Source of the DNA: Urbifossiella limnaea
GTDB taxonomy: Bacteria; Planctomycetota; Planctomycetia; Gemmatales; Gemmataceae
Reading direction: 5' to 3'
NCBI RefSeq assembly: GCF_007747215.1
Contig: NZ_CP036273.1
Location: forward strand, 2,588,322 to 2,652,321
DNA: 64,000 nt
The notes below the pieces were generated by a model. That model did not search any database and was not told where the DNA came from. It was given only the letters and a program-made list of their open reading frames with translations. Shown in pieces: positions 13,371 through 21,613 of the stretch. The position numbers were made by a program, and so were the translations under genes. The stretch's first letter is position 1. Each line of letters begins with the position of its first letter.

Positions 13371-14900
13371 TTACTTCACCTCGCGCGTTGGGTCGCTCAC
13401 CACAGGATCGATCGGCTCGCCGTTCAGTGCCCGCATGAACAACACCAGCGCCGCCTTCTCGTCGGCGGTCAGGTTCAGCTTCAGCGGGATAATCGGCTTC
13501 TTCGACGGGCCGAACGTCTTCACCGCCGCGTCCACCGGCTGGCCGGCCGCCCGCGCCCGCAGGTACGCCGCCTCCGCCGCCGTGTCCCGGAGCTTGTCAC
13601 TCAGGTACGGGTTGGCGTTGCCGCCGCGGTCGTACAAGTCCACCACCGCCTCCAGCGTCTTCTCGTCGCCGCTGTGCATGTACGGGGCGGTGTCCACCAG
13701 CCCGCGCAGGCCCGGCGTCTTGAACGCCCCCACGAGGTTCACGTCCTTGTGCCCCGTCCGCAGGATCGAGAACCGGCCGAACTCCTCGTACGGCAGGTCG
13801 CCGTTCCCGTCGGCGCCGACGCCGAGGTTGTGGAAACCGCCGTCGCTGAAGGTGTCGCCGGTGTGGCAGGTCGAGCACTTCGCCTTGCCGAAAAACAGCG
13901 TCCGGCCTGTGACCAGCTTCGCCCCCACGGCGTCGGCCTTGCCGGCGTCGGCGTCGGGGTCGAGGTTGAGCGCCTTCAGCGCGGCCGCGTCCTTCGCCGC
14001 GAACGCCGCCTTCAGCACGGCCGCGTAGTCCTCCGCCTTCAGCTCGAACTTGCCGCTCTCCTCCTCGGTCACGCGCTTCTTCATCGCCGCCTCCGCCCGG
14101 TCGTGGACCGAGTTGCCCGACAGCACGGTCCGCTCGTAGGTAGCGATGGCCTTCGCGGCCGAGTCGCGGGTCGGGGCGTGGCCGAACACTTGCGCGAACG
14201 CCTTCACGTACTCCGGCGTGCCGCGCAGCCGTAGGACGGCTTCCTCCCAGGCGTCGGCCTTGCCGCCGAACATCTCCTTGTTGTTGCCGACCGGCCCCTG
14301 CGACTGGTCTTCGAGCGTGTCGGCCCGGCCGTTCCAGAACTGGAACTTGGCGTAGGCGGCGTTGATGACCGTCGGCGAGTTGATCGGCCCGAGCGCCCCG
14401 CCGATGCCGGTCGAGGTACGCTTCTGGTCGGTGAACCCCTTCGCCGGGTGGTGGCACGTCGAGCACGACACGTTGCCGCTGGTGGACAGGATCGGGTCGT
14501 AGTACAGCTTCCGGCCCAGCAGCCACTTGGCGAGCGTCATCGCGTTCTCGGCCGGCACCGGCGGCGCCGAGTTGAGCCCGAGCGGCACCCGCACCTTGAT
14601 CGCCCGCCGCGTCACCTTCTCGCCGGTGGCGGGGTTGACGGTGTCTTCCTGGTAGTCTGTGAAGAACGCCTTCAGGTCGGCCCAGCCGGGCTGGTTGCGG
14701 GTGACGAAGGTCATCGGCACCTGATCCTTGAACGGGATCATGACCGCCTCGTTCGGCAGCAGGTAGTCGGCGGGCTCGGTGAGGCCGGCGAGGCCGGGCT
14801 TGGTCGGCGGGTTGGCCGAGGTCGGACCGGGGACGGCGGCCAGCGCGGCGAGCGCGGCCGCCACGGCGACGGGTCGGGAGAAGCGCCAGGCGGCGGACAT
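13371..14900 (-). CDS. Di-haem cytochrome c peroxidase (CcpA/MauG family)
   Basis: A 509-residue exported protein with a signal peptide cleaved near TSA-NPP (residue 29). Two c-type haem sites are visible, CSTCH at 146-150 and CSTCH at 342-346, in the order of bacterial di-haem peroxidases. LLGRKLYYDPILS precedes the first haem, and FKTPGLRGLVDTAPYMHSG is the conserved C-terminal loop with the distal Met. It probably reduces hydrogen peroxide in the periplasm using a small electron donor. It is longer than typical (about 350) because of an N-terminal extension and an insertion between the haems. MauG-like oxidation of another protein is an alternative. Confidence 0.92.
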   Translation of the reverse strand: MSAAWRFSRPVAVAAALAALAAVPGPTSANPPTKPGLAGLTEPADYLLPNEAVMIPFKDQVPMTFVTRNQPGWADLKAFFTDYQEDTVNPATGEKVTRRAIKVRVPLGLNSAPPVPAENAMTLAKWLLGRKLYYDPILSTSGNVSCSTCHHPAKGFTDQKRTSTGIGGALGPINSPTVINAAYAKFQFWNGRADTLEDQSQGPVGNNKEMFGGKADAWEEAVLRLRGTPEYVKAFAQVFGHAPTRDSAAKAIATYERTVLSGNSVHDRAEAAMKKRVTEEESGKFELKAEDYAAVLKAAFAAKDAAALKALNLDPDADAGKADAVGAKLVTGRTLFFGKAKCSTCHTGDTFSDGGFHNLGVGADGNGDLPYEEFGRFSILRTGHKDVNLVGAFKTPGLRGLVDTAPYMHSGDEKTLEAVVDLYDRGGNANPYLSDKLRDTAAEAAYLRARAAGQPVDAAVKTFGPSKKPIIPLKLNLTADEKAALVLFMRALNGEPIDPVVSDPTREVK

Positions 14901-15008
14901 GGTGCGTCCTTTCGCGGGTCTGGAAGGGGCGTGTGCGGCGGGAGTAACAGTTATTCGTTAGGCGCCGCCGGGCGCGGAGTCAACGCGGCGGTCATCGGGG
15001 GCGGGTAT

Positions 15009-15542
15009 TCACGGCATCGGCGGCGACGATGGCAGGGCGGCGAGCAACCGGGAGACGGCGGGGCGGTCCGTCGGGTCCTTCGAGCGATACGCGAACAGGG
15101 TTCGGCCCGACCGGTCGAGGACGAAGTCGCCGCCGAGCTGAAACACGTCCTCGCCCTGGTAGGGTTGTTGCGGGGCGAACCCGCGGACCATTCCGGCGAC
15201 GTACCCGAGGAGCACCCGCGGCCGGAGGAAGGTGCGGAACGGCGTTCGCTCCAGGCCGAAGGCCCGGTACGCGCCGCGCTCCGGGTCCGACGCGAAGGCG
15301 ACGCTGTAGGTGTGGCGGGCGAGGTAGTGTGCGAGGAACTCGGGCTTCGCCTGCGCGACGGCGAGGACGGAGCAGCCTCGGGCCGCGAACTCGTCGCGGG
15401 CGGCGTCCACCTCGCCGAGGTGGGCGTTGCACGGGATTCAGACGAGGTGCCGCAGGAAGACGACGAGCAGGAACGGCCGGTCGATGAAGGCGCCGAGCGT
15501 GGTCGGCGTGCCGTCCGGGAGGAGGAGGGGCAGGGCGGTCAT
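15009..15542 (-). CDS. Peroxiredoxin-like AhpC/TSA protein with in-frame TGA, candidate selenoprotein (SelL-like)
   Basis: Read through one TGA, this is a 177-residue thioredoxin-fold protein of the AhpC/TSA antioxidant (Prx-like) group. The first 34 codons give a family-like N-terminus ending LLVVFLRHLV. Codon 35 is TGA (15438-15440), followed by I-P-C, so the redox motif is U-x-x-C where relatives have C-x-x-C after FLRH. The rest (DFVLDRSGRTLFAYRSKDPTDRP near the end) stays in frame to a TGA stop at 15009. A 7-bp hairpin with a GGC loop starts 14 bases after the TGA. A naive call would start at a GTG at 15410 and lose the active site. It lies 19 bases after a glycosyltransferase gene. A Cys-to-stop pseudogene is the main alternative. 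Confidence 0.75.
15407..15423 (-). promoter_or_regulatory. SECIS-like hairpin downstream of the in-frame TGA
   Basis: On the minus strand CCACCTC, loop GGC and GAGGTGG form a perfect 7-bp stem. The apical loop begins 21 bases after the TGA and starts with G. Both points fit the published bacterial SECIS model (UGA to loop about 16-37 bases, small loop with an early G). It lies inside the coding region, as bacterial SECIS elements do. Confidence 0.6.
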
Positions 15543-15561
15543 GGTGGGTAGTGTAGCGGGT

Positions 15562-16563
15562 TCACCCCCGGACGCGCCGCCACATTTCCTTCAGGAAGCC
15601 CCACGCGAACCCGAAGTGGATGCCGACGATGACCGCGGGGATGCGCGCCGCCACGCCCGCCGGGCGGCCGCGGCCCAGCACCACGGCCGCGCCGAGCAGC
15701 ACCGCCGCGTACAGCGCCAGGCTCGCGCCCCACACCCAGCCCAGGTACGGCACCACGAGGCTCAGCAGCCCGCCGAGCACGACCCACAGCGCCCACGCCG
15801 GCGGCACCAGCGCCGGTAGCGTCAGCGACCGCGGCGCCTTGAACGCCAGCCGGGCGCGGCCGAGGCCGTACCGGCCGAGCTGGTAGAACAGCGCCCGGAA
15901 GCTGGCCCGCGGGTGGTACACCACCTTCACCGCCGGCGTGAAATAGCACGTCAAGCCGGCCGCCTCCACGCGCTGGTTGAACTCCACGTCTTCGCAGGCG
16001 TCGAACGCCTCGTCGAAGAAGCCGACGCGGTGGAACACGCCCCGCCGGTACGCCACCGCCGTGTTCTGCGGCGGCACGAACTTGGCCTCGTCGGAAAAAA
16101 TGTCGGAGTCGGGGTTGTGCCCGAGCCGGCTCGCGCGCGCCGCCGACACCGCGAGTTGGAACCGCGTCGGGTTCGGGGCGTCGAGCGGCTGCGGCCGGCC
16201 GAGGCTGTCGGCGCCGCTCGTGGCGAAGGCGTCGGCCACGTTCCGCAGGTAGTTCCGGTCCGGCACGGTGCAGTGGCCGTCCACGATGACGGCCACGTCC
16301 TTGCTGGCGTGCCGCAGGGCGGTGTTGCGGCCGGCGCTGGAGAGGCGGCCGGCGTTGAAGACGAGCTTCAGGTTCGGGAACTCGCCCTGGAGGCGGCGCA
16401 CGATGGGGACGGTGGCGTCGTCCGAGCCGCCGTCGGCGACGATGACCTCGAACCGGTCGGCGGGGAAGTCCTGCGTCAGGAGCGTCCGCAGCGCCGGCTC
16501 GATGGCCTTCGCCTCGTTGCGGATCGGCACGATGACGGAGACGGAGCATTCGTCCTTCGTCAT
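15562..16563 (-). CDS. Glycosyltransferase family 2 with C-terminal membrane segments
   Basis: A 333-residue GT-A glycosyltransferase of the succinoglycan/ExoA type. The catalytic part has SVIVPIRNEAKAIE (about 8-21), VIVADGGSDDATV, VAVIVDGHCTVPD as metal-binding region, a central VGFFDEAFDACEDVEF with the conserved ED, and QRVEAAGL. Two or three hydrophobic segments (about residues 245-310) anchor it in the membrane. It probably adds a sugar to the exopolysaccharide repeat unit. It is read after the sugar transferase, with an inverted repeat between. The start at 16563, which yields MTKDECSVSVIVP, is itself supplied by that repeat; starts at 16581 or 16608 are possible. Confidence 0.85.
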   Translation of the reverse strand: MTKDECSVSVIVPIRNEAKAIEPALRTLLTQDFPADRFEVIVADGGSDDATVPIVRRLQGEFPNLKLVFNAGRLSSAGRNTALRHASKDVAVIVDGHCTVPDRNYLRNVADAFATSGADSLGRPQPLDAPNPTRFQLAVSAARASRLGHNPDSDIFSDEAKFVPPQNTAVAYRRGVFHRVGFFDEAFDACEDVEFNQRVEAAGLTCYFTPAVKVVYHPRASFRALFYQLGRYGLGRARLAFKAPRSLTLPALVPPAWALWVVLGGLLSLVVPYLGWVWGASLALYAAVLLGAAVVLGRGRPAGVAARIPAVIVGIHFGFAWGFLKEMWRRVRG

Positions 16564-16655
16564 CCGTCCTTCGTCATTCGTCATTCGGCCGACGCCGTGA
16601 GTGACCATCGAGGAATCCCGCCCCGGGCGAATGACGAAGGACGAATGACGAAGGA
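16553..16655. repeat. 28-bp inverted repeat built of TCCTTCGTCATTCG-type units
   Basis: Arms 16553-16580 and 16628-16655 pair with one mismatch. Each arm holds two short direct units of the type TCCTTCGTCATTCG. The left arm contains the chosen start codon of the glycosyltransferase; the right arm ends four bases before the sugar transferase stop. Confidence 0.75.
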
Positions 16656-16658
16656 GGG

Positions 16659-17393
16659 CTATTCCGTCGGCACCCGCGGCTTGCGCTGGTAGAGGCGCTT
16701 CAGCCCGAGCAGCTTCAACCCGGTCGCGAACAACACCACCAGTTCCATCCGTAGCGTCCGGTGGCGGACGTAGAAGAGGTCGTAGGCCAGCTTGTTCTTC
16801 ACGCTGCGGACGCACGTGTCCGGCGGCAGGTGGACCTGTGCGAAGCCGGTCAGGCCGGGCTTCACCACGTGCCGGCGGTCGTAGCCGGGGATGCTCAGCC
16901 GCAGCCGCTTCACGATTTCCGGCCGCTCCGGCCGCGGGCCGACCAGGCTCATGTCGCCGCGCAGCACGTTGAACAGCTGCGGCAACTCGTCCAGGTGCAG
17001 CTTGCGGAGGGCGCGGCCGAGCGGCGTGATCCGCGGGTCGCCGGGGAGGCTCCAGCGCGGGCCGGTCAGGCTCTCGCAGTCGTGGACCATGCTGCGAATC
17101 TTGTACAGCGTGAACACCCGCCCGCCGCGGCCGACGCGCGTCTGGCTGTAGATCGCCGGCCCCGCGGACGTGAGCCGGACCAGCAGACAGCACAGCCCCA
17201 TCAGCGGCAGGCCGGGGATGAGGATCAGCAACGCCGCCACGCCGTCGAACGCCGGCTTGGCCCACCCCGCGGGTCGCACCGGGGCGGGGCCTGACGGCCG
17301 GCAGGGCGGGTGCTGGATCGACACGGCTGGACTTCGCATCGCGGGCTTCGGGGTCGCCGCCACGGCCCACGGCCGGGTGGTTCGGTCGGTCAT
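16659..17393 (-). CDS. Polyprenyl-phosphate sugar-1-phosphate transferase (bacterial sugar transferase family)
   Basis: A 244-residue member of the WcaJ/WbaP C-terminal catalytic family that starts a polysaccharide repeat unit by moving a sugar phosphate onto undecaprenyl phosphate. One hydrophobic hairpin lies at about residues 47-75. The core motifs are clear: FTLYKIRSM, DPRITPLGRALRKLHLDELP, QLFNVLRGDMSLVGPRPE, and VKPGLTGFAQVH. It lacks the large N-terminal membrane part of WcaJ, so it is the short form. It sits between EpsI and the glycosyltransferase in the exosortase locus. Confidence 0.93.
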   Translation of the reverse strand: MTDRTTRPWAVAATPKPAMRSPAVSIQHPPCRPSGPAPVRPAGWAKPAFDGVAALLILIPGLPLMGLCCLLVRLTSAGPAIYSQTRVGRGGRVFTLYKIRSMVHDCESLTGPRWSLPGDPRITPLGRALRKLHLDELPQLFNVLRGDMSLVGPRPERPEIVKRLRLSIPGYDRRHVVKPGLTGFAQVHLPPDTCVRSVKNKLAYDLFYVRHRTLRMELVVLFATGLKLLGLKRLYQRKPRVPTE

Positions 17394-17448
17394 CGGTGCG
17401 GTCCTTCGCGGTGATGCCGGGCGGGGCGTCCCGGCCGTCGGTCGTCCG

Positions 17449-18105
17449 TCAGCGGGCGAACCCGGCGGCGTACTGGGCGAACGCGGCGGCGACGAAGGCG
17501 CGCGTGGTGGCGTCGTCCTCCGGCCGCTCGTCGTCGCCGTCGGCGAGGGGGGTGACGACGTACACCTTGTAGAGCACGGCCACCCGCGCCAGCCGGGCGG
17601 CGAACTGCCACCGCGGGTTGTCGGGGGCCTCCCACGCTCCCTCGCCGGTGTGCCACGCCCAGCGCACCCGCACCCGGTCCTGGCGCGTCGCCGTCGTCTT
17701 CTCGAAGTCGGCGACGTAGTACGTCGCGGTGCCGCCGCCGGGCAGCTCCGCGGTCTCCTTCTTCGGCGCCCGCAGCGTCTTGTACCCGCTGCCGGGGTAG
17801 CACACGTCCGGCGTGTGCGTCGACACCGACCCCGGGATGCCGCTGATCATGGTCACCGCGCCGCCGCGGCCGGTGCTCGCCGACTGGTAGCGGTGCGAGG
17901 TGGCGACGCTCCGCTCGTTGGTCGGCATCTCGGTCGGGATGGGCGTCGGCTGCCAGTCCTCGAAGCGGACTTCGAGGGCGTGCATGCGGTCGTTCTGCGT
18001 CTGGTCGGGCTCGACGAACGTCCACCGCTGGATGGCCGCCCCGTGGACCACGGCCCCGGCCACGACCAGCACGGCGACGACGACGAGCGCGGGTGTCTTC
18101 AGCAT
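17449..18105 (-). CDS. EpsI-like exosortase-associated protein (DUF3485)
   Basis: A 218-residue protein with an N-terminal membrane anchor or signal (LVVVAVLVVAGAVVHGAAI) and a periplasmic domain. The conserved block THTPDVCYPGSGY near residue 100 is the hallmark of EpsI, which is found with or fused to exosortases in exopolysaccharide loci. ATYYVADFEKT and VRWAWHTGEGAW follow, also family-like. The exosortase lies two genes upstream on the same strand. EpsI is proposed to assist export or processing linked to extracellular polysaccharide; its biochemistry is not established. Confidence 0.85.
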   Translation of the reverse strand: MLKTPALVVVAVLVVAGAVVHGAAIQRWTFVEPDQTQNDRMHALEVRFEDWQPTPIPTEMPTNERSVATSHRYQSASTGRGGAVTMISGIPGSVSTHTPDVCYPGSGYKTLRAPKKETAELPGGGTATYYVADFEKTTATRQDRVRVRWAWHTGEGAWEAPDNPRWQFAARLARVAVLYKVYVVTPLADGDDERPEDDATTRAFVAAAFAQYAAGFAR

Positions 18106-18121
18106 GGTGCTTCTCCGGGCT

Positions 18122-18223
18122 GGGCCGAGGGACAGTGGGACTGAGGGACTCAGGGACCAAAGACGAGCCTTGTTCCCGAACTCAGAGTCCCTTTGTCCCT
18201 GAGTCCCACTGTCCCTCAGCCCA
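18122..18223. repeat. Imperfect inverted repeat of GGGACT-type units
   Basis: The stretches 18122-18158 and 18195-18223 are complementary except for an eight-base tandem duplication in the first arm. Both consist of short repeats related to GAGGGAC and AGTCCC. It fills the spacer between the chain-length protein and EpsI. Confidence 0.65.
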
Positions 18224-18226
18224 CAC

Positions 18227-20491
18227 TCAGCACAGCGCCTCGGTCTCGGTCGCGCCGACGTACACGACGCCGCTGTACGGGATCTCCATCGCCGCCACGC
18301 GGTCCGTCGCCTTCTCCAGCAGCGGCAGCTTCGTCTCGCGGTAGCGGGCGCACACCAGCACCACCTCGCACCGCCGGGCCACCGCCACCGACTCGGCGAC
18401 CGTCAGCAGGGCGTGGCCGTGCAGGATGACGCAGTCGAACGGCTCCTTCAGCTTCGCCAACACGGCTTCGAGCCGCCCGCCGACCGCGGCCTGCCGCGCC
18501 TCGTCGGACCACTTGCCCGCCGGCAGGAACGCCAGCCCGCTCGGCAGCGTCACGACCGCCGAGCGCGGGTCGGTCTCGCCACGGAGCACCTCGCACGCGC
18601 CGACGGTGTTCGGCACGCCGGCGTAGGTGTGCAGCGCGGGCTCGCGCAGGTCGAAGTCGGCGAGGAGCGTCTTGTACCCGGCCTGGGCCAGCGAGCTGGC
18701 GAGGCCGAACGCGGTGAACGCCTTCCCCTCGTCGCCCAGCGGGCTCGTCACCGCCACGCACGTCGCCCCGCGGCTCAGCCACGTCTGCGCGACGTAGGCC
18801 CGCAGCTTGTCGATCGCCTCGTTCGCGGCCGCCCGCCGGGCCGGGTCGCGGCCGGTGGCGTCGGTCGGCAGGCCGGGGATGACGCCGACCACCGGCGCGG
18901 GGCCGACCGACTTCAGGTCGGCGAGCGAGCTGACGCGGCGGCTGACGGTCTCGAACGCGACCACGCCGAGGGCCACGAGGAAGTAGCCGAACAGGCCGCC
19001 GGCGACGGTGCCGAGCACCTGCTTCTTGATGTCCTTCTGCATCGGGCTGGACGCCGGCTGGAGCAGCTGGATGCGCTGCCCGGCGAGCAGGTCGAGCTTC
19101 AGCGCCTCGTGCTGGGTGATGAGGCGGGCGTACATGCCGTCGCGGGAGCGCAGGTCGGTGTCGGCCGGGTCGTAGCTCGGCGGCACGAGCCCGCCGCGGC
19201 CGTCGGTGCGGACCACCTCCGCCGCCTGCGGCAGGTTGTTGAGCATGCGCTCCAGGTTGGCCATGCTGATGCGGGCGGTGGCGAGCTGCGTCTCGTAGCG
19301 GGCCACCTGGTTCTTCACCGTCGTCCACTCGGTGAAGAGCAGTTTCCCCTCGGCGGCGCGCCTCCCGCCTTCGAGGAGACCGGCCTTCTCGCGGCGGACC
19401 TCGGCCAGGCGGGCGTTCTGCGCCTCGTACACGCGGCGGAGGTTGACCACGTCCGGGGCGTCCGGCCGGCCGGCGCTCGCCGCGAAGTCGTGGTTCGCCT
19501 TGGCCCGCCGCACCTGCATCGATTGATCCACGACCTGCTGGTCGTTGTCGACCGCGGCCAGCGTCGCCGGGTCTAGGGGCGCCCGCTTAAGTGCCTCGAT
19601 CTGGCCTTCGAGTTCACGCATCCGCGCCTTCCCGGCGCCGATCTCGATCGGCAGCGTGCGGTCCACTTCCATCTGGAGCGCGGCGAGCCGGGAGACCAGC
19701 GCCCGCGGGTCGAGCTTGGCCATGAGTTCCAGGCCGCTCACGGCCGCGGGCGCCGCGGCCGGCGGTGCGACGCCCGGCGGCAGAACGCCGGGCGTGCCTT
19801 CCACGGCCTGCACCGGCGTGACGCCGTCGCCCGGCGCCTTGGCGAGGGTGTGGCCGCGGCTCATGTTTTCGAGCCGCTTCTGCATGTCCTGCATGGCCTG
19901 CTCGGACTGGCGGAAGCGGGCCTGCTTCGTCGCCACCTCCTTCTGCACGACCTCGGCCAGGAACGCCTTCTGGACGGCGTTGACGATCTTGTTCGCGTCC
20001 GCCGGGTTGTGCGACGCCATGCTGACGCGGATGACTTCCGACCCGTCCGGGGCGCCGACCAGCACCTCCTCGCCGAGGTACTTGATGGGGTCCTTCTGGG
20101 CCTTGACCGTCGGCAGGTCCTTGAGGTCGCGCATGGCGGCGTTGAGGACGAATTCCGACTTGATGAGGCCGCTCATGGTGCGGACGTAGGTCGTGAAGTC
20201 GGTCCGGGCCTCCTGGGCGTTCCCCTGGTGGGCCAGCGCCGGCGGCACCTGCGACACCTGGAGGAGGCCGTACGACTCGTACTTGCTGGCGAGCAGTTCC
20301 CACGCGGCGTAGCTGCCGACGGCCCCGAGCAGGGTGCCGCAGAACAGGATCATCAGCCAGTGGAGCTGGAGGTACGTGAGGACGCGGAGGCCGTTACCGT
20401 CGCCGTCCGGCTTGGCGGCCGGGCGGGCGAGCGGCCGCGGCGGGGCGGGCCTCGGGGCGGCGAGCGCGGGGGCGAAGGTCGGTCCGTTCAT
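18227..20491 (-). CDS. Polysaccharide chain-length determinant / BY-kinase-like ATPase fusion (Wzc-like)
   Basis: A 754-residue inner-membrane protein. The first 32 residues are Pro/Ala-rich. Then come a Wzz domain with a first membrane helix (about 43-68), a long periplasmic coiled coil (about 190-440), a second helix near 495-520 (AGGLFGYFLVALGVVAF), and a cytoplasmic P-loop domain (about 550-754). The P-loop SPLGDEGKAFT has Ala after the Lys, where Walker A normally has Ser/Thr. Walker A' LLADFDLREP is present, and no C-terminal tyrosine cluster is seen. It thus resembles Wzc/ExoP but may not autophosphorylate. It follows the exosortase by 55 bases and likely controls polysaccharide length and export. 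Confidence 0.88.
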   Translation of the reverse strand: MNGPTFAPALAAPRPAPPRPLARPAAKPDGDGNGLRVLTYLQLHWLMILFCGTLLGAVGSYAAWELLASKYESYGLLQVSQVPPALAHQGNAQEARTDFTTYVRTMSGLIKSEFVLNAAMRDLKDLPTVKAQKDPIKYLGEEVLVGAPDGSEVIRVSMASHNPADANKIVNAVQKAFLAEVVQKEVATKQARFRQSEQAMQDMQKRLENMSRGHTLAKAPGDGVTPVQAVEGTPGVLPPGVAPPAAAPAAVSGLELMAKLDPRALVSRLAALQMEVDRTLPIEIGAGKARMRELEGQIEALKRAPLDPATLAAVDNDQQVVDQSMQVRRAKANHDFAASAGRPDAPDVVNLRRVYEAQNARLAEVRREKAGLLEGGRRAAEGKLLFTEWTTVKNQVARYETQLATARISMANLERMLNNLPQAAEVVRTDGRGGLVPPSYDPADTDLRSRDGMYARLITQHEALKLDLLAGQRIQLLQPASSPMQKDIKKQVLGTVAGGLFGYFLVALGVVAFETVSRRVSSLADLKSVGPAPVVGVIPGLPTDATGRDPARRAAANEAIDKLRAYVAQTWLSRGATCVAVTSPLGDEGKAFTAFGLASSLAQAGYKTLLADFDLREPALHTYAGVPNTVGACEVLRGETDPRSAVVTLPSGLAFLPAGKWSDEARQAAVGGRLEAVLAKLKEPFDCVILHGHALLTVAESVAVARRCEVVLVCARYRETKLPLLEKATDRVAAMEIPYSGVVYVGATETEALC

Positions 20492-20546
20492 GGGCTCTGC
20501 GTCCTTGCAGGCTCAGACCAGGGGTGAGTCGCGGCGGTCGGGCGCG

Positions 20547-21470
20547 TCAGTCGTTCGTGACGAGCTTCTTGAGCACCCACAGCTCCAGCGCCAGCAGCGC
20601 CAGGCCGACCGGCATCATGAGCCAGCCGTAGAAGTCGTGCAGGAAGTCGAGCGTCCCCTTGTCGGTGAGGACGAGGTACGCCAGGCCGGTGGCGGTGATC
20701 CGCAGCACGTTCGTCAGCACGGCGATCGGGATGATGCCGAGCAGCACCATGCCGCGCTCGAACCACGAGCGGTTCGTCAGGAGCACGGCCCCGACCGAGA
20801 ACGCGGCGAACGTCACCAGCATCTTCAGGCCCGAGCACGCGTCCACGACGCCGAGCCGCACCTCGTCGATCAGGATGAGGTTGCCGTCGCGGATCGCGGG
20901 CTGGCCGAGCGTCTGCAACAAGTACGTGCTGCTGATGGTGGCCGCCGTCTTGAGCGGCTGGCCGACGTTCCGCTCCAACTCGTACGGGAGCGGCACCATG
21001 AACAGGAGGAACAGCAGCCCGCCGCCGACGCGCCTCAGCAGCGGCATCCCGCCGGCCGCGAGCGCGACGCCGACGAGGGCGAGCATCAGGCTGGCGGCGT
21101 CGAGCTGGTGGAACAGCAGGCTGCCGGCGAACGCCCGGAGGACGACCGCCACGGCGAGGAGCCCACAGCCGACCCAGGGCCGCGGCAGGGGCACGAGCGG
21201 CCCGGCCTGCCACGCCTTCCACACGAGGTACGCGGAGAAGAACGGCACGAGCAGGCCGTGCGAGTACTGCGGGTCGTTGATCCACTTGTCGAAGAACACG
21301 GCCAGCATGGGCAGGTACGCCCAGACCAGCAGGCCGACGAGCGCGGCCACCTGCCACAGCGGCGGGCGGAACGGGGCGGGCGGCGTGGGCGCAGTGACGA
21401 CCGTGACGGGGGTGGTCGGCAAAACGGCGGTCGTCGGCGGCGGTGCGGGTGCGGCGGTGGTGATCGACAT
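20547..21470 (-). CDS. Exosortase (exosortase/archaeosortase family)
   Basis: A 307-residue integral membrane cysteine transpeptidase-like protein with about eight hydrophobic helices after a Pro/Thr-rich N-terminal 34 residues. The predicted catalytic triad is visible: C212 in VVDACSGLKML, R257 in NVLRITATG and H278 in FLHDFYGWLMM. Exosortases are thought to sort proteins with PEP-CTERM-like tails in exopolysaccharide-making bacteria. It is the first gene of the locus, so the whole set probably shares its promoter in 21471-21613. ATG at 21470 is preferred over an in-frame GTG at 21482. No PEP-CTERM substrate was seen in the window. Confidence 0.92.
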   Translation of the reverse strand: MSITTAAPAPPPTTAVLPTTPVTVVTAPTPPAPFRPPLWQVAALVGLLVWAYLPMLAVFFDKWINDPQYSHGLLVPFFSAYLVWKAWQAGPLVPLPRPWVGCGLLAVAVVLRAFAGSLLFHQLDAASLMLALVGVALAAGGMPLLRRVGGGLLFLLFMVPLPYELERNVGQPLKTAATISSTYLLQTLGQPAIRDGNLILIDEVRLGVVDACSGLKMLVTFAAFSVGAVLLTNRSWFERGMVLLGIIPIAVLTNVLRITATGLAYLVLTDKGTLDFLHDFYGWLMMPVGLALLALELWVLKKLVTND

Positions 21471-21613
21471 CCCTGTCCCCACGGGGGGCGAACCTCGGCG
21501 AGCGGGGATTGTTGCACCCGCCGCGGGTCCGACGCAACCCCACTTCCCGGCCGCGGGGAATTCGGTGGCCCCACCGGAGCCCGTGCCGGTAGCATCGACC
21601 TGGGGGTGACGCG

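Follow-up and report, generated by a model that had tools for sequence, protein, structure and literature searches.

The peroxiredoxin-like gene and its in-frame TGA

The window analysed here is a stretch of 64,000 nucleotides from Urbifossiella limnaea (NCBI RefSeq assembly GCF_007747215.1, contig NZ_CP036273.1, positions 2,588,322 to 2,652,321). The features that are relevant to the gene under study, all located on the minus strand, are:

15562..16560 (start approximate), minus strand: upstream neighbour, family 2 glycosyltransferase, ending 19 nt before the gene (context)
15009..15542, minus strand: gene of a putative peroxiredoxin-like (Prx-like) selenoprotein of the SelL-related, UxxC type, 177 aa including one Sec (NF040769 and AhpC-TSA families, AlphaFold2 model)
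15438..15440, minus strand: TGA within the frame (codon 35), very probably decoded as Sec, opening the U-I-P-C motif (aligns with TGA/Cys codons of relatives)
15429..15431, minus strand: TGC, Cys38, closing the redox motif (invariant column in 29 aligned rows)
15407..15423, minus strand: SECIS-like mRNA hairpin, 7 bp, loop GGC (15416-15414), 21 nt after the UGA (folding, comparison with relatives)
13371..14900, minus strand: downstream neighbour, di-haem cytochrome c peroxidase / MauG-like, 108 nt away (context)

The minus-strand frame from 15542 to 15009 comprises 177 codons plus a stop: it starts with ATG (15542-15540), ends on a TGA terminator (15011-15009) and is interrupted solely by the TGA at codon 35 (15440-15438). 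When this codon is taken as Sec, the surrounding sequence reads VVFLRHLV-U-IPCNAHLGEV, with the motif U35-I-P-C38. An earlier reading of the DNA (the sequence-only reading) had proposed that the TGA replaces the first Cys of the C-x-x-C that follows FLRH, giving U-I-P-C, and that the frame is open and family-like on either side. Translation confirmed the former; as to the latter, there is no further stop and the flanks retain family residues in the alignment. It had also foreseen that standard gene calling would keep just the part from 15410, and table-11 ORF calling indeed leaves 15009-15410 (GTG start, 133 aa), the portion 3' of the redox motif, which would presumably be inactive. Scans for a promoter and a terminator found nothing.

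The best named family for the complete translation was NCBIfam NF040769, 'SelL-related redox protein' (195 bits versus a cut-off of 120, residues 4-169); compared by model name and scores, the full-length match showed no difference from this family. The family was matched by 29/29 aligned members at E ≤ 1e-5, a Cys orthologue (L038) scored slightly below its cut-off (117.6 versus 120), and within the phylum it was matched in 280 of 392 genomes at E ≤ 0.001 and over the cut-off in 51, TGA and Cys forms both being represented. The Pfam families found over the cut-off were AhpC-TSA_2 (PF13911, 46 bits), AhpC-TSA (PF00578, 37 bits) and Redoxin. An AlphaFold2 model, made from 37 aligned sequences and with Cys in place of Sec, had a mean pLDDT of 95.7. 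Its best fold match in the PDB was human prostamide/PGF synthase (9usa, 9us9; TM 0.76/0.82), a Cys enzyme (entry title C44S/C47S) with 16% identity, and peroxiredoxin Q came next. The sequence search of the PDB with the Prx-like protein gave weak matches alone (best E 0.028). The human prostamide/prostaglandin F synthase goes by the name PRXL2B.

The hairpin downstream of the TGA

The perfect 7-bp stem with a GGC loop, 21 nt past the UGA, that the sequence-only reading had described was found as stated. According to the Fig. 2 legend of PMC13188914, the bSECIS rules are: a loop of 3-9 nt, a stem of 4-16 bp, a G in the first two loop positions, a distance of 16-37 nt from the UGA and an MFE ≤ -7.5. 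The hairpin agrees with these rules on loop, stem, spacing and energy (GGC, 7 bp, 21 nt and, over the first 50 nt past the UGA, -17.6 kcal/mol). Its exact geometry (7 bp, a 3-nt loop opening with G, spacing 21) is found at one of the 1334 TGA trinucleotides on both strands of the window, namely that of this gene, and 179 of them are followed by some allowed hairpin with 7 bp or more. Recodings of the gene that preserve the protein reach this stem length in 8% of the cases and an equally low energy in 17%. In G+C-rich DNA, the hairpin by itself is weak evidence; since the single-gene statistics are not significant, pooled tests over relatives were performed, and the case rests on comparison.

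Conservation of the TGA codon and the hairpin in relatives

We searched 99 genomes, including that of U. limnaea itself: 64 contained a match and 40 a form with one TGA, the position of which was checked in 28. Among the 30 loci fetched from the nearest genomes (window included), 28 have TGA and 2 a Cys codon at the first redox position; among 29 additional loci from a phylum-wide search, 8 have TGA and 21 have Cys. The alignment of homologues, which had been suggested as a check of codon 35, recovered Sec or Cys at that place. In 80 loci of named genomes, the titles of which include Planctomycetota, Deltaproteobacteria, Chloroflexota, Bacillota and actinobacterial and gammaproteobacterial MAGs, the first redox codon is TGA in 75 (74 by script and L121 by eye) and Cys in 4; this sample was collected with one peptide pattern (80/82 loci kept) and so leans to proteins bearing that motif, and 21 of the segments do not differ over 60 nt from one that had already been collected. 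In one locus (L144, SAR202) the first redox position is a Ser and the TGA comes three codons on (SLPU), and three of the 80 (L147, L148 and L151; Dehalococcoidia/Chloroflexi by title) carry a TGA at each of the two redox codons (UxxU), like SelL. The nearest named relatives of the window genome are Gemmata and other Gemmataceae MAGs. Stops at other places in close relatives had been put forward as a sign of a pseudogene; the same-genus relatives have one TGA, in the same place, which speaks for a selenoprotein. The same-genus relative L011 has an additional TAG close to the end of the match, which is probably the true stop of that gene.

The pooled hairpin rows comprised 110 TGA and 27 Cys forms before, and 74 and 22 after, the 80% filter; L121 and L144 were left out, as the motif pattern missed them. 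Of the 74 non-redundant TGA forms, 34 have the complete 7-bp stem, where 400 synonymous recodings gave 2.9 on average and never more than 8; none of the 22 Cys forms has it. With a 60% filter, it is present in 16/48 TGA forms, where 1.7 were expected and the maximum was 5. The Cys forms show slightly more pairing than their recodings (z 2.5 for the 27 unfiltered rows, 1.4 for the 22 rows), where the z-scores of all pooled hairpin tests are inflated by relatedness. When the bSECIS rules on loop, G and spacing were applied together with a minimum stem of 6 bp, 71/74 TGA forms passed versus 4/27 Cys forms. A loose scan (stem ≥ 4 bp) was rejected as a poor discriminator (passed by 74/74 TGA and 17/27 Cys forms); both scans covered the full set of 27 Cys rows with its duplicates.

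Compensatory changes were found at both helix ends of the 74 TGA forms: the outer pair is GC in 33, CG in 19 and UA in 4, and the inner pair is CG in 32 and GC in 15. The inner pair connects the third base of codon UGA+7 with the first base two codons on and is C-G or G-C in 47/74; the innermost pair is unpaired in 27/74 (GG 13, CC 6, CA 6, UC 2) and the outermost in 11/74. The covariation at the helix ends arises partly via silent changes. By an independent count, the covariation score was 0.249 versus 0.100 after shuffling (0/500 as high) and 0.087-0.144 for slid controls; the number of pairs that changed on both sides (5/7), one of five covariation measures, was mildly above the shuffles, 34/500 of which equalled it. 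The comparison per locus covered 59 loci (L009-L038 and L053-L081; L052 is the window again). One TGA form among them (L021) has 5/7 of the usual pairs, and its fold contains another stem a few bases further on. Two within-genus pairs of a Sec and a Cys form were found: L022 (Sec) and L023 (Cys), which each keep 6/7 stem pairs, and L035 (Sec) and L038 (Cys), which share gene order on both sides and of which L038 has lost the hairpin (3/7 pairs).

Selenocysteine machinery and co-occurrence with selA

The genome consists of one contig of 7.8 Mb and is 97% complete. The search for selA, selB, selC and selD that had been listed as a check recovered all four, each over its cut-off: tRNA-Sec (selC; 78 bits versus 47, anticodon tca) and, over the curated cut-offs, selA (543 bits), selB (329 bits, or 370 including the C-terminal part) and selD (384 bits). 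Judged by this gene content, the organism should be able to make selenoproteins; the claim leans on the four genes jointly, because the tRNA-Sec search also exceeds the Rfam cut-off in 5/14 control genomes. A second, weaker tRNA-Sec-like match is located elsewhere in the genome (L002, G000:C1:1712515-1712600; 51 bits versus the Rfam cut-off of 47) and may be an ordinary long-arm tRNA.

A selA over the cut-off was found in 38 of the 40 genomes with a TGA form versus 4 of the 18 Cys-only genomes (Fisher p 3e-8), and in 32 of the 59 genomes without a TGA form (p 5e-6 versus the 38/40); both tests ignore relatedness, by which they are inflated. The Cys-only genomes are 18 hand-chosen ones that lack a TGA form and match at about E < 1e-7; G019, which has several stops, and five genomes in which all matches were weaker were omitted. 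The two genomes with a TGA form that lack a selA over the cut-off (G049 and G058) are 69% and 79% complete.

Other TGA sites with a SECIS-like hairpin in the genome

A SECIS model was run over the U. limnaea genome and gave 20 matches at E ≤ 1, 11 of which were inspected. Among the eight examined first, two, the window gene and a second Prx-like gene, carry within a long frame a TGA at model position 1, and six have no TGA at that position. Three more matches have a TGA there (E 0.25, 0.30 and 0.70), with 32, 7 and 12 open codons before it and 13, 43 and 243 after it, respectively; the last of these is L173 (G000:C1:421608-421657). The second Prx-like gene lies outside the window (L162:1387-1977, G000:C1:3567886-3568476; AhpC-TSA 111 bits) and is the second-best SECIS-model match in the genome (31 bits). 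Its in-frame TGA lies in GW-U-PYC and is followed, at a distance of 21 nt, by a 7-bp hairpin whose loop is GUU. At E ≤ 1e-20 it was found in one same-genus relative (81% identical, one TGA) among 41 genomes searched, its own included.

Interpretation as a Prx-like selenoprotein

We interpret the gene as encoding a UxxC Prx-like selenoprotein, because the UGA is conserved, the hairpin is conserved across relatives, the TGA forms accompany selA and the machinery is complete. Judged by these comparisons, the UGA at codon 35 is very probably decoded as selenocysteine, to yield a full-length redox protein. The genome's own SelA/SelB/SelC/SelD system would insert Sec at this codon, and SelB would recognise the hairpin 21 nt after the UGA. 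The product would be a Prx-like/SelL-related protein with a thioredoxin fold and a probably cytoplasmic location, in which Sec35 is most likely the attacking and Cys38 the resolving residue: after oxidation by peroxide or disulfide, Sec35 would form a Se-S bond with Cys38 and would then be reduced again by a thioredoxin-type system. We consider a Sec35/Cys38 redox cycle of this kind reasonably likely.

The alternative that survives best concerns the function only and is compatible with Sec decoding: the selenoprotein could be a true peroxidase (peroxiredoxin) instead of a thiol-disulfide oxidoreductase. The match to the AhpC/TSA Pfam families and a fold that resembles peroxiredoxin Q fit such an enzyme, whereas the redox pair U/C-x-x-C is that of the Prx-like thiol-disulfide oxidoreductases and the Sec peroxiredoxin is listed as TxxU in the table of a review (PMC9312934), so that we take a true peroxidase to be a possibility of some weight, yet the less probable of the two. 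Near-cognate suppression, in which the UGA would be read as Trp, Cys or Arg and not as Sec, is very improbable: the residue that alternates with TGA at the redox position is Cys in the examined rows (with one Ser, L144), a tRNA-Sec is present, the hairpin fits the bSECIS rules and the TGA forms accompany selA. Least credible is a true stop, caused by a nonsense mutation or sequencing error and leaving a pseudogene or two ORFs, for although this code uses TGA as an ordinary stop, and the gene itself terminates with one, the TGA at codon 35 turns up again in other genera and phyla, in frames that show no general decay, the family residues flanking it are retained, the conservation of the hairpin in the pooled TGA forms exceeds protein-coding needs and the Sec machinery is present in the genome.

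The UxxC Prx-like selenoprotein that we favour is of a described kind. Sec-containing Prx-like thiol-disulfide oxidoreductases appear in a 2006 survey (PMC1794560), and UxxC/UxxU motifs are given for Prx-like selenoproteins in two reviews (PMC9312934, PMC13188914); the window protein shares with the proteins of these three sources the AhpC-TSA domain, the UxxC motif and the occurrence of Cys homologues. SelL, as described in PMC3473315 and PMC2397514, is likewise Prx-like with Sec in the redox motif, but has two Sec residues that form a diselenide; the window protein has one (UIPC) and thus falls outside SelL in the strict sense (two Sec, UxxU). For marine planctomycetes, selenoproteins are reported in PMC4807772. 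The available text of open-licence papers on Gemmata selenoproteins or selenocysteine contained no mention of this gene, and neither did the titles and abstracts of the matches listed for selenoproteins and the family names in the wider open-licence literature.

Genomic context and implications

The genes upstream on the same strand encode: an exosortase, a chain-length/tyrosine-kinase-like protein (below NCBIfam's cut-offs), a DUF3485-like protein (below Pfam's cut-off), a sugar transferase and the family 2 glycosyltransferase. The region 13371-21482 of the window can be described as an exosortase/exopolysaccharide cluster that ends with the selenoprotein gene and the di-haem peroxidase, and this order is kept in some planctomycete relatives. 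Of the 79 distinct TGA loci whose flank was long enough, 16 have a glycosyltransferase relative on the same strand, upstream of the redox codon and no more than ~1.1 kb from it. On the downstream side, 17 of 83 TGA loci (window included) have a peroxidase relative at up to ~1.2 kb. The loci with conserved neighbours are planctomycete by title or kinship, with the exception of L143 (a weak glycosyltransferase match, 26% identity). The conservation of the neighbours is shared gene order. A direct partnership between the peroxidase and the Prx-like protein is doubtful, because the former appears to start with an export signal and the latter does not. It is unlikely, in our estimation, that in the Gemmataceae the selenoprotein is a fixed redox part of the exosortase/exopolysaccharide cluster that works with the di-haem peroxidase in envelope or redox maintenance.

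The analysis adds a well-supported selenoprotein to the planctomycete family, the kind itself, a UxxC Prx-like selenoprotein, having been in print by 2006. The within-genus pairs of Sec and Cys forms, one of which is in the same gene order, constitute natural material to compare Sec and Cys in the same enzyme. If the selenoprotein were indeed to serve the exopolysaccharide cluster, the supply of selenium would reach surface biogenesis.
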